DNA of 50,118 bases from contig NZHT01000068.1 of the NCBI GenBank assembly GCA_002691385.1, positions 4,002-54,119 on the forward strand. Direction: 5' to 3'. The notes beneath the pieces are model-generated. The model had not been told where the DNA came from, searched no databases, and saw only the letters and a program-made list of their open reading frames with translations. This stretch comes from Flammeovirgaceae bacterium. GTDB lineage: Bacteria > Bacteroidota > Bacteroidia > Cytophagales > Cyclobacteriaceae. Shown here one piece after another: positions 8,405-25,909 of this stretch (position 1 is the first letter of the stretch; each line of letters begins with the position of its first letter). The position numbers and the translations under genes were made by a program.

Positions 8405-8604
8405 GGTCATATGTTGATCAATAAGGATAAAGGCGAGCCTAATTGAAAATAGTTGATATGATAGTTTTATGGATTTTTCATAGATAATTCTAACGAATTA
8501 AGAAAATCTGTTATTTGAGATAAAAATTCTCTATTCATAGTTTTAATCCTTGTTTCATTAATTAAAAATGAAGAAAGTATATTTTTTTATTTTATTTGGT
8601 TAGA

Positions 8605-11025
8605 ATGATTAGCTCAAAAAAAGCGATATCAGTTTTATACTTCATCTTGTTCATTCATTGTGGATTTTGTCAAATCTTAGATACTACCCTTGCCAATTTC
8701 CAGTATTATCAATATCAAGTACCAGAGGAGAAAGTTTATTTATCGACGGATAAAGAAGTTTTTGTTCAAAATGAACATTTGTGGTTTTCTGTCTTCTTAG
8801 TTGATGCGAAAACACATCAAACGAGTTCAATCAGCAAACTAGTCTATGTTGATTTACTGGGGCCAAAGGATCAAATCATTTCCTCATTAGCCATTGACAT
8901 GAAATCCCATTTGGGAAAAGGGAGTTTCTTTTTGGCGGATAGTCTTTTAGCGGGGAATTACACGATCAATGCTTACACAAATTATATGCGTAATGGTTCC
9001 TCAGAATTTATATTTTCTAAGACGGTAGAATTTTTCAATTTAAAACGAAAAAGTACATTAAAGGAATCTTTTAGAAATGAAAAAGGAATCCATGTTGATT
9101 TTTTTCCAGAGGGAGGATATATTATTAGTGGAGTGCCTAATATTATTGCATTCAAGATCATTGATGACTCCGGAAATGGTTTGATTCATCAGGGTATGTT
9201 GATTGATTCTAGTGGCAATGAGATCATGGAGTTAAATCCGTTAAAATTTGGATTAGGAAAATTTCAATTTACACCAGAAAGTGGTCAGGACTACAGTGGA
9301 TTTTTTCAGATCAATGGGAAAGAGTATTTTTTCAAACTTCCAAAAGCTCAGGAGAAAGGTTATCAGCTAACCGTTAGAAAGACTTTGACTAAAACCTATA
9401 TTACAGTCAAGGGATCACCAGGCATGAGTTTTAAAAACACCTATTTATTGATGCATATAAGAGGCAATATCATTAAAGTTGTAAAATCGACTTTGGGACA
9501 AGAATTTATTTATAATTCGTTGGTTAATGATCAAGTTCCTTCAGGAATCATTCATATTACTTTTTTTAAAGAGGATATACCTTTACTTGAACGGTTAATT
9601 TATAACGAAATAGCAAATGATAAAATAAACATAGCTATTGATGTCACATCAAACATTAAAAAGCGGAGTAAGGTTAATTTTGATTTGAATGTTTTAGACC
9701 CTGACGACTTAAAATCTTCAGGTTCTTTTTCGGTTTCGGTTCAAAAAAAATCAACAGACAGAAATAAAATCAATATTGAAAATTATTTATGGTTGACTTC
9801 TGATTTGATAGGTAGCATTGAATCACCCAATTATTATACAAATGTAGCCAATTTGGATCGATTTGAAATGTTGGATTTGCTCATGTTAACCCATGGATGG
9901 CGAAGATTTGACTGGGACAATGTATTAAACAAGACTTTACCTCCTATCCTTTATTTTCCAGAAAAGGGATTTACATTGGAAGGGAAAGTTGTTCGTTGGG
10001 AAGATCGATCGAAACCGATTCAAGCTGATTTGTCAATGACATTTTTTGAAAATATTAATTTTCAATTAAAGACTTCTAGTAATGAAGCTGGTGATTTTTG
10101 GTTTGAAGGTTTACAAGTTGAAGATACCCTAAATGCATTGATTCAAACAGTTAACCCTAAAAAGGGTAGGAAAGGTAAATTAACAAACTCATTTATTGAA
10201 ATAAAAAAAAAGACTTATCCTAAATTGAGGAAAAATCCTCCATCTAACAAAATGGAAAGTGAGATATTGTATCGTGATTATTTGGACGACATGTTGGAAA
10301 TTGCTCAAATTAAAGCGTCATATGATGGAGATGTAATTTTCCTCGATGAAGTAGCTGTAGAATCAACCTTAGATCGATCTTCGAATCTGTTTTATCGAGA
10401 ATATATGCTTTATCGAGAACCAGATACACGCTTGATTGTAGACTCTATAAAGACCGGATATGCAAATATTTTTGATGTAATTAAGGGGAGGCTTACAGGC
10501 GTACAGTTTAGTAAAGATGAAAATGGAAATTATCTTGCCTTGGTTAGAGGTGCTAACTCAATTTCTCTGGATAACAACGCAGTATTTTTACTTGATGGTC
10601 AGGAGATGTCATCCTCGGTGATCAGTACCATTAATCCAAATGATATTTCCCATGTTGATGTATTAAAAGGGACACGCGCAACCATTTATGGAACTCCAAA
10701 TGGCGTAATCGCCTTTTATAGAAAGACGGGAAGATCAGGCGTAGCACTTGGTAATACTATGGGGATTTTAAATGTGGAAATGTATGGATATCATCAGCCA
10801 GATGAGTTTTATGTACCGAATTATAAAAACCCAACTGAAATAGAAAAGATAAGACCAGACAGGCGTGGTACGCAGTATTGGTGTCCAACTGTTTCTCTGA
10901 ATCAGAATAAGGCAAGTTTTTCCTATTACACTTCAGATGATTCAGGAGACTTTGTCGTCTACATTGAAGGGCTAACCCATGAGGGTAGATTGATCCGATC
11001 AGAGGTCAATTTTAAAATTGATTAG
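8605..11025 (+). CDS. MG2/carboxypeptidase-regulatory-like protein with TonB-dependent receptor plug domain, no beta-barrel
   Basis: EEKVYLSTDKEVFVQNEHLWFSVFLVDA (MG2-like). Plug-like DVIKGRLTGVQF...ALVRGANSISLDNNAVFLLDG...INPNDISHVDVLKGTRATIYG. ATG at 8605 preferred over the TTG at 8596. Confidence 0.75.
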   Translation: MISSKKAISVLYFILFIHCGFCQILDTTLANFQYYQYQVPEEKVYLSTDKEVFVQNEHLWFSVFLVDAKTHQTSSISKLVYVDLLGPKDQIISSLAIDMKSHLGKGSFFLADSLLAGNYTINAYTNYMRNGSSEFIFSKTVEFFNLKRKSTLKESFRNEKGIHVDFFPEGGYIISGVPNIIAFKIIDDSGNGLIHQGMLIDSSGNEIMELNPLKFGLGKFQFTPESGQDYSGFFQINGKEYFFKLPKAQEKGYQLTVRKTLTKTYITVKGSPGMSFKNTYLLMHIRGNIIKVVKSTLGQEFIYNSLVNDQVPSGIIHITFFKEDIPLLERLIYNEIANDKINIAIDVTSNIKKRSKVNFDLNVLDPDDLKSSGSFSVSVQKKSTDRNKINIENYLWLTSDLIGSIESPNYYTNVANLDRFEMLDLLMLTHGWRRFDWDNVLNKTLPPILYFPEKGFTLEGKVVRWEDRSKPIQADLSMTFFENINFQLKTSSNEAGDFWFEGLQVEDTLNALIQTVNPKKGRKGKLTNSFIEIKKKTYPKLRKNPPSNKMESEILYRDYLDDMLEIAQIKASYDGDVIFLDEVAVESTLDRSSNLFYREYMLYREPDTRLIVDSIKTGYANIFDVIKGRLTGVQFSKDENGNYLALVRGANSISLDNNAVFLLDGQEMSSSVISTINPNDISHVDVLKGTRATIYGTPNGVIAFYRKTGRSGVALGNTMGILNVEMYGYHQPDEFYVPNYKNPTEIEKIRPDRRGTQYWCPTVSLNQNKASFSYYTSDDSGDFVVYIEGLTHEGRLIRSEVNFKID

Positions 11026-19581: not shown

Positions 19582-20268
19582 TTGAAAAGGCTTATTCTGT
19601 ATATAATTATTTTTTTGGTAGGAATAATATTTTCTATTTCGATACTAATTTTTGTATTTGACGAAAAATTACCTGATCCAGAAGGTACTCAAAAAGGCCT
19701 TTGGTTGGCTGAAAAAATGTCAAAAGCGATGAATAAATCAGCTTATGATAGCCTTAGTTTTATTTCTTGGCAATACGGATCCCATCACTATGATTGGAAT
19801 AAGAAAGAGGATTCTGTCAAAGTCATTTGGGCTAATTTTGAAGTAAATGTATCGACCCGAACCCTTGAGGGAATTGCTTATAGAGGGGGTGTTATTTTGT
19901 CAGATGATCAAAATAAAAAATCGGTAGAGAAAGCCATTCGGTACTTTAATAATGATTCTTTCTGGCTGGTCGCACCTTACAAAATTTATGATCCTGGTGT
20001 TATACTATATAGTGTAAGTCTTCCGCTGGGTCATGGTTTGATGGTTACCCATACACAAGGTGGGTCAACGCCTGGAGATAGTTATCTTTGGCTGTTAGAC
20101 GATAACTATTTTCCAAGAGCGTGGAAAATGTGGGTAAATATTCTTCCTGTAGGAGGAGTAAAAAGTGAATGGATGGGATGGCAGAAAAAAAAAGGTGCTT
20201 GGTTTCCAGGAAGTTTTGAAACACTTTTTTTCTATAAAAAGGAGGTTAAAAATTTAGTTGTTTATTAA
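19582..20268 (+). CDS. Conserved hypothetical protein with N-terminal TM/signal anchor
   Basis: 228 aa ORF (TTG start), one hydrophobic N-terminal segment, stop/start overlap with the next gene at 20268. Confidence 0.7.
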   Translation: MKRLILYIIIFLVGIIFSISILIFVFDEKLPDPEGTQKGLWLAEKMSKAMNKSAYDSLSFISWQYGSHHYDWNKKEDSVKVIWANFEVNVSTRTLEGIAYRGGVILSDDQNKKSVEKAIRYFNNDSFWLVAPYKIYDPGVILYSVSLPLGHGLMVTHTQGGSTPGDSYLWLLDDNYFPRAWKMWVNILPVGGVKSEWMGWQKKKGAWFPGSFETLFFYKKEVKNLVVY

Positions 20269-24053: not shown

Positions 24054-25909
24054 ATGGAGAGTTTTGTTGTGTCGGCACGGAAATACAGACCCTTAGGGTT
24101 TGAAGAGGTAGTAGGTCAAGGTCATATTACCACTACCTTAAAGAATGCAATTGAGCAAAATCAATTGGCACAAGCATTGTTATTTTGTGGGCCCCGAGGG
24201 GTTGGGAAAACAACTTGTGCCCGAATTTTGTCCCGAATGATCAATGGATTTGAAGTTCAAAATGGGGATGCAAACACGGCCAATTTAAATATTTATGAAT
24301 TAGATGCGGCATCCAATAATTCAGTTGAAGATATTCGTAATCTCATTGATCAGGTTCGCTACCCACCTCAAGAAGGGAAATATAAAGTTTACATTATTGA
24401 TGAGGTGCACATGTTATCCAATCAGGCGTTCAATGCCTTTTTAAAAACACTCGAAGAACCGCCTGTATATGCAATTTTCATTTTAGCCACTACAGAAAAG
24501 CATAAAGTCATTCCCACCATCTTGTCAAGATGCCAGATTTATGATTTCAATCGCATTGAAGTCGATAATATTGTGGGCCAATTAAAAAAAATAGCAAAGG
24601 AGGAAGATACTGCTTATGATGATGATGCCTTGCATTTAATTGCACAGAAGTCAGATGGGGCTTTGCGAGATGCGCTGTCTATGTTTGATTTGATTGTCAC
24701 TTTTTCTTCAGACAAAAAAATCACTTATAAAAATACGATCGCCCATCTGCATATTCTTGACCACGACTATTATTTTAAGCTTTCAGATCTCTTTTTGGAG
24801 CAAAATCTGTCTGCCACCTTGATGCTGTTTGATGAAATATTAAAAAAAGGGTTTGATCCACATAATTTTCTGATCGGCTTGGCCCAACATTTTAGGAATG
24901 TATTGGTTTGTCAAAATCCAGCAACCTTAGTCTTGTTAGAAGTTTCAGAGAAGGTCAAAAATAAGTTCAAAGATCAATCTGAGGACTTATCTGCTTCATT
25001 TTTACTTTCGGGCTTAAACATCATTAATCAATGTGATCAGGGTTATAAACAGAGTAAAAATCAAAGGCTTCATATAGAGCTTTGCCTAATGAAGTTGTCC
25101 CAACTTGATCGAGCCTTCAAACTTTCAGCACCTCAAGAGGCATTAAAAAAAAAAGTTCTGACTTAAAGGGTCAATCGACACCTGATAAAAAAATCGATTC
25201 CAAGGAGATAGAGGATGAAAAAATAGAAAAGCAGAAAGGCCAATCTATGGTTAAAGAAGCCCCTAGTGATTCCTTGGAATTAAGCCCTGAGGGCCCATCT
25301 CTCAGTCAAGAAGAAACTGCTTTGATTTTCAATAAAAATAAACCTGAGCCACCTTCTAAGCATCAAATGGTCAAGGAAGATAAAAATGCTGACTTAGTGA
25401 ATTTAAAAGCACCTGCTAAGCTTTCTTTAGAGTCAAAGTCTGAGATTGTATCCCCAACACAGAAACAGAAAGAGACTCCTTCAATTTTCAAGAAAAGGAA
25501 AGATCAGCTGGTCAAAGATGTTAGTGAAAAGATAGGGAAAAATGAAGTATTTACAGAAGTAGAACTTCAAGATGCCTGGAAGGATTTCATTGAATTTCGT
25601 AAAAATAAAGTGGAAAGTGAAATGGAGCAGCTTATCCTGACACGTCAAATAATTAAAAAAGGAACAAATGCTCTTATCAAATTAAATAGTTCTCTAGAGA
25701 TTGCGATATTTGATCGAATTGAGGTTGATTTGGTTAATTTTTTAAGAGAAGCCCTATCCAATGATCAGTTGATCGTTAACAAAGAAATTAAAGAAGATCC
25801 TAAAAAAGACAAACTTTATACCAGTAAAGACAAATATGATTTTATGGTTAAAGAGCAGCCTTTGCTTCAAAAATTAAAAGACAAGTTAGGTCTGGATTTT
25901 GAGTATTAA
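24054..25909 (+). CDS. dnaX: DNA polymerase III subunits gamma/tau; 0-frame product stops at 25166 (370 aa), tau-like product needs a -1 shift at the A10 run (predicted 618 aa)
   Basis: AAA+ clamp loader motifs (SARKYRP, LLFCGPRGVGKTTCARIL, YIIDEVHMLSNQAFNAFLKTLEEPP, SRCQIYDF). The second ORF 25247..25909 lies in the -1 frame, which is open continuously from the A-run at 25145 and ends LGLDFEY, resembling Bacteroidota DnaX C-termini. Confidence 0.88.
25145..25154 (+). promoter_or_regulatory. Putative programmed slippage site (A10) in dnaX
   Basis: 0-frame gca tta aaa aaa aaa gtt ctg act taa; -1 frame gives aaa aaa aaa agt tct gac tta aag ... without stops into the tau-like ORF. Contains the A AAA AAA heptamer. 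Confidence 0.7.

Follow-up and report, generated by a model that had tools for sequence, protein, structure and literature searches.

What does it mean that the dnaX gene of this Flammeovirgaceae bacterium, in the 50,118-nucleotide stretch of DNA analysed here (the window), is divided between two reading frames at a run of ten As? The preliminary description of this DNA had proposed programmed slippage giving a gamma and a tau subunit, left undecided whether the slippage is transcriptional or ribosomal, and did not cite the direct precedent (PMC3711429). The comparative data support programmed slippage as the best reading, and from the sequence we put a probability of about 0.86 on dnaX carrying a programmed transcriptional-slippage cassette that gives gamma and tau.

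The split at the A run, the 370 aa first product and the open downstream frame of the preliminary description were all borne out (Table 1). The border sequence around the run reads gca tta AAAAAAAAAA gtt ctg act TAA, and in the window the 0-frame stop lies 9 nt and the +1-frame stop 4 nt past the run. Reading in the -1 frame meets no stop from about 55 nt upstream of the 0-frame stop until the TAA at 25907-25909, and joining it to the 0 frame gives a product of 618 aa. Computed translation of mRNAs with 8, 9, 10, 11, 12 or 13 As gives products of 617, 368, 370, 618, 369 and 371 aa, respectively, that is, two gamma-length classes and one tau class. The run is the sole A or T run of at least 10 within the window; both strands of the 2.96 Mb genome hold 137 overlapping A10 matches, and A10 is not rare per se. 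Because such runs are scattered through the genome, the evidence lies in the conserved position of the run and not in its presence. Two other ORFs in the window contain A9 runs, at 10203-10211 (ORF 8596-11025, 809 aa) and 20185-20193 (ORF 19582-20268, 228 aa), and slippage at these sites would shorten the products of both.

Table 1. Layout of the dnaX locus, in window coordinates.
Feature	Position	Strand	Remarks
dnaX 0-frame ORF	24054..25166	+	370 aa, gamma-like, clamp-loader domains I-III, C-terminus EALKKKVLT*; TIGR02397, PF12169
A10 run, proposed RNA-polymerase slippage site	25145..25154	+	run in 136/139 order-level relatives, exactly 10 As in 115
TGA, +1-frame stop	25159..25161	+	would end mRNAs with 9 or 12 As, giving another gamma form (KKKF/KKKKF, 368-369 aa)
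TAA, 0-frame stop	25164..25166	+	would end mRNAs with 10 or 13 As: gamma, 370-371 aa
Tau-specific part, -1 frame: acidic/lysine linker and C-terminal domain	25154..25909	+	reached when the mRNA has 11 or 8 As; product of 618/617 aa
Conserved tau C-terminal domain	25457..25906	+	150 residues modelled; alignment of 65, AlphaFold

Both parts of the gene are recognizably DnaX. The 0-frame ORF scores 382.9 bits against TIGR02397 (curated cut-off 250), and clamp-loader domain III (PF12169) occupies residues 235-365 of its product, which agrees with the earlier placement of the end of this protein after domain III. The downstream domain described as tau-like matches, in the -1-frame product, the C-terminal 240 positions of the NCBIfam DnaX model NF011531/PRK14971. 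The joined 618 aa protein scores 699 bits against this model, above its cut-off of 685, over model positions 1-613/614, whereas the separate halves score 614 (the 0-frame part, below the cut-off) and 76. The tau C-terminal domain is conserved in an alignment of 65 sequences, and its AlphaFold model has a pLDDT of 80 with a confident core at about residues 30-110 of 150. No solved structure was significantly related to the domain by sequence, and a fold search with the model gave no match at E <= 0.001. Weak fold matches included DnaA domain I, DciA and, at rank 17, E. coli tau domain V (2aya); the modelled likeness to replication adaptor domains is below significance throughout and suggestive only. 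Gamma and tau of DnaX have the clamp-loading ATPase in common, and the additional C-terminal part of tau links the clamp loader to polymerase and helicase. By this established knowledge of DnaX, the C-terminal part of tau would have a polymerase- and helicase-tethering role here as well.

The split is far from private to this genome. DnaX protein is present in 145 of the 146 relatives searched, in many of which the 0-frame ORF is also about 370 aa long. Across the 139 order-level loci analysed, the border runs counted in Table 1 have at least seven As, and 131 loci have at least nine. The constancy of A10 is not explained by protein sequence alone, since AAG accounts for 36% of the Lys codons elsewhere in these dnaX genes. 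The preliminary description had pointed to the dnaX genes of close relatives as a check, and all seven same-genus relatives with an intact match have a run of 9-11 As there, followed by tau in the -1 frame. Two loci, L004 (one of these seven) and L071, differ from their neighbours in that the tau frame is broken about 100 codons past A10, possibly by assembly error or through loss of tau.

The frame in which tau is templated varies around this constant run. Relative to the start of the gene, the tau frame among the 136 genomes with a run is -1 in 93, 0 in 40 and +1 in 3; of the 43 relatives in the latter two classes, 29 have exactly A10. Outside the order, L168 and L266 also combine A10 with a +1 tau frame. 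In a tree built on the first 350 DnaX residues within one order, parsimony counts 23 frame changes, or 14 when only A10 genomes are counted; support on this tree is modest, and its strongly supported branches by themselves require, whichever of the two main frame classes is considered, six or more changes rather than 23. Variation in the direction of frameshifting among orthologs is the criterion by which Antonov et al. 2013 (PMC3711429) favored transcriptional realignment over ribosomal frameshifting, and the -1/0/+1 distribution of 93/40/3 is variation of exactly this kind.

The second constant is the pair of stop codons that closes the two non-tau frames. The farther of these stops lies at a median of 10 nt past the run, versus 52 nt under shuffling of the downstream codons, a control that ignores relatedness. 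The genomes compared are nearly all from different genera and their downstream sequences differ; indeed, the downstream 12-mers differ in 78 of 80 genomes, which argues that the stops have been remade and not simply inherited. In split genes the +1-frame stop falls within 10 nt in 79%, against 28% of shuffles. The weakest stop pair among fused A10 genes is that of L118 and L120, which keep A10 with out-of-frame stops 39-53 nt away. Flanking bases were compared in 80 split genes whose A10 sits in codon phase 2: the base 5' of the run is always T or C and never G, and the base 3' of the run is G in 67; this bias could be due to codon choice or to slippage context.

A tau frame that varies around a constant A10, together with stops in both non-tau frames, favors transcriptional slippage, and we propose the following model. 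RNA polymerase would slip on A10 to produce dnaX mRNAs with 8, 9, 10, 11, 12 or more As. Ribosomes would read mRNAs with 10 (or 13) As as far as the TAA behind KKKVLT, and 9 or 12 As would bring them to the TGA behind K(K)F; either way the protein would be of gamma length, with both classes together spanning 368-371 aa. In mRNAs with 11 (or 8) As the downstream frame would be restored, and the product would be a tau of 617-618 aa with linker and C-terminal domain. Slippage would in this way spread the mRNAs over every frame, with tau from one of them and gamma from the other two, so that the templated frame of tau would matter little. Selection would keep the run and its two flanking stops, and the tau frame would drift among 0, -1 and +1. 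The model is built on direct observations of the sequence anatomy, of its conservation, of frame variation and of the flanking stops.

Several known systems bear on the model. E. coli dnaX uses -1 programmed ribosomal frameshifting at A AAA AAG, with a Shine-Dalgarno (SD)-like element and a stem-loop. As proposed here, a single gene yields both gamma and tau, with the border of domain III as the point of divergence. However, E. coli has an A6G site backed by a strong stem-loop, and a stop follows immediately in its -1 frame alone (at 3 nt, the +1 stop coming only at 35 nt). No such stem-loop was found in our locus, whose upstream purine stretch is no more SD-like than synonymous versions would be, and here, unlike in E. 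coli, the shifted product would be the long one. In Thermus thermophilus dnaX, transcriptional slippage at A9 has been shown experimentally (Larsen et al. 2000, summarised in PMC5009743 and PMC1088944), and there are near stops in both non-tau frames (PMC5009743). The A run at the gamma/tau border, the paired stops and the one frame in three that leads to tau are all alike, whereas tau is templated in the 0 frame (A9) in Thermus and in the -1 frame (A10) here; slippage is experimental in Thermus, whereas for this organism its occurrence and efficiency are inferred, as are the roles of gamma and tau. In Shigella mxiE (PMC1088944) the templated frame is likewise short and slippage yields a longer protein, but the run is of Us, the gene is a different one and there is no gamma/tau pair.

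The kind of gene described here has been known since 2013. Antonov et al. 2013 (PMC3711429) reported 17 two-ORF dnaX genes, nine of them with 10 As; they described a novel gene arrangement that makes tau depend on recoding, and they predicted transcriptional realignment. In the literature searched, this paper alone brought dnaX, Bacteroidetes and transcriptional slippage together. These GeneTack genes resemble ours: in the DNA, gamma occupies the 0 frame and tau the -1 frame, with A10 at the border. Compared with that set of genes, the present data extend to most of the sampled phylum and include fused and +1 versions, with selected stops in both other frames. The additions are thus the breadth, the repeated swapping of frame around a constant run and the paired stops. 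Three sequence traits that would place a dnaX gene with the Thermus and GeneTack type are present: a conserved border A run of at least nine, near stops in both non-tau frames and a direction that is not conserved.

The signals of ribosomal FRAMESHIFTING were sought around the run. The A AAA AAG of E. coli is absent in frame, the 0-frame codons being tta aaa aaa aaa gtt, and the only heptamer at the window site is A AAA AAA. No comparable downstream stem-loop was found: 57 nt fold to -6.3 kcal/mol in the window, versus -19.1 for E. coli. The fold z-scores of split relatives (-0.34) and control positions (-0.19) are alike, and that of the fused set is somewhat lower (-0.80), to which GC-rich Hymenobacter-like genomes contribute; the z-score is a weak test, as the E. 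coli site itself reaches only -1.1, and absolute energies were used alongside it. A purine-rich SD-like stretch upstream of the run exceeds control windows but not synonymous versions of the same peptide (window p 0.43). Synonymous selection for an SD-like element was not found, and the stretch can be explained by the conserved Glu residues encoded there. Only tRNA-Lys(UUU) was seen among 30 examined of 35 tRNA genes; the tRNA set therefore does not discriminate between the mechanisms and is compatible with ribosomal slipping. The purine stretch, explained as it is by the encoded Glu, the single tRNA-Lys, the somewhat shift-prone A AAA AAA, the modest support on the tree and the few members of the phylum that have no run are points that weigh against transcriptional slippage.

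Ribosomal slipping could enter in two ways. Both mechanisms might be substantial, with transcriptional slippage setting part of the ratio while ribosomes slip too. A runs of such length serve both, and the two have been discussed together for dnaX (PMC5009743, PMC3711429), but nothing here requires a ribosomal component, and neither a stem-loop nor synonymous selection for an SD-like element was found, so that we regard a substantial dual contribution as improbable. A -1 programmed ribosomal frameshift on A AAA AAA, resembling that of E. coli dnaX with the roles of the frames reversed, would account for the 93 of 136 relatives in which exactly a -1 shift is needed, and the heptamers, the lone tRNA-Lys(UUU) and the upstream purine stretch are consistent with it. 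It is nevertheless very unlikely as the sole mechanism. The in-frame A AAA AAG site and the stem-loop are both missing, the SD likeness is no greater than synonymous codons would give, and ten As are retained where seven would suffice. Tau lies in the 0 or +1 frame in 43 relatives, and where it is in the +1 frame a -1 ribosomal shift cannot yield it. Such a shift also has no use for a stop in the +1 frame, and the enrichment of this stop, selected though not needed, counts against -1 ribosomal frameshifting alone. A further alternative is an artefact of sequencing or assembly at the homopolymer, of which the sequencing error was the main alternative in the preliminary description, or else a decaying frameshift private to this genome. 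It gains something from the draft state of the genome (129 contigs) and the error-proneness of homopolymers, but is effectively ruled out by conservation of the run in more than 130 independent assemblies and by selection on the stops in both non-tau frames. The same A10 split recurs in other genomes of the genus and in dozens of further genera, among them single-contig assemblies and named isolates (for example Flavobacterium denitrificans DSM 15936).

With transcriptional slippage as the preferred reading, the distribution of the cassette can be followed through the phylum. The order of the window probably belongs with Hymenobacteraceae (Cytophagales), since one of its families (f13) shares 83% DNA identity with Hymenobacter. 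The same layout is found across Bacteroidia, and 72 of the 80 named Bacteroidota loci have a cassette with at least nine As. The gene is mostly split in Flavobacterium and Chryseobacterium and fused in Hymenobacter, Pedobacter and Mucilaginibacter, and both states occur in Aquimarina. In more distant members of the phylum A9 or A10 is the usual state, tau being either in frame or at -1, and 14 of 69 loci are without the run. In one family of the same phylum (f35), which is probably Chlorobiaceae on a basis that includes published Chlorobium cases, A9 or A10 is nearly constant and tau is in the -1 frame in most members and in the 0 frame in others. An uncultured Bacteroidales locus (L303) has a 0-frame dnaX ORF of 383 aa and no A run of at least seven near the border, which may point to a different recoding signal or to misassembly. 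It is likely that dnaX slippage is an ancestral, phylum-wide module of the Bacteroidota, Chlorobia-like lineages included, in which the conserved unit is A9 or A10 plus two out-of-frame stops, slippage is near saturation, and the templated tau frame is near-neutral and has changed repeatedly, by some 14-23 parsimony steps within one order.

If slippage is indeed near saturation, then any of the three frames would give a workable ratio of tau to gamma. Carriers that can be cultured are many, both split (Flavobacterium, Chryseobacterium) and fused (Hymenobacter, Pedobacter), and this makes the ratio hypothesis testable. The combination of a constant run, a varying frame and stops in both other frames may serve as a signature, readable from sequence alone, that distinguishes slippage of RNA polymerase from ribosomal frameshifting. 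What appears to be a broken replication gene would instead be a conserved decoding device, and a dnaX gene in this phylum that looks truncated or frameshifted is probably intact.
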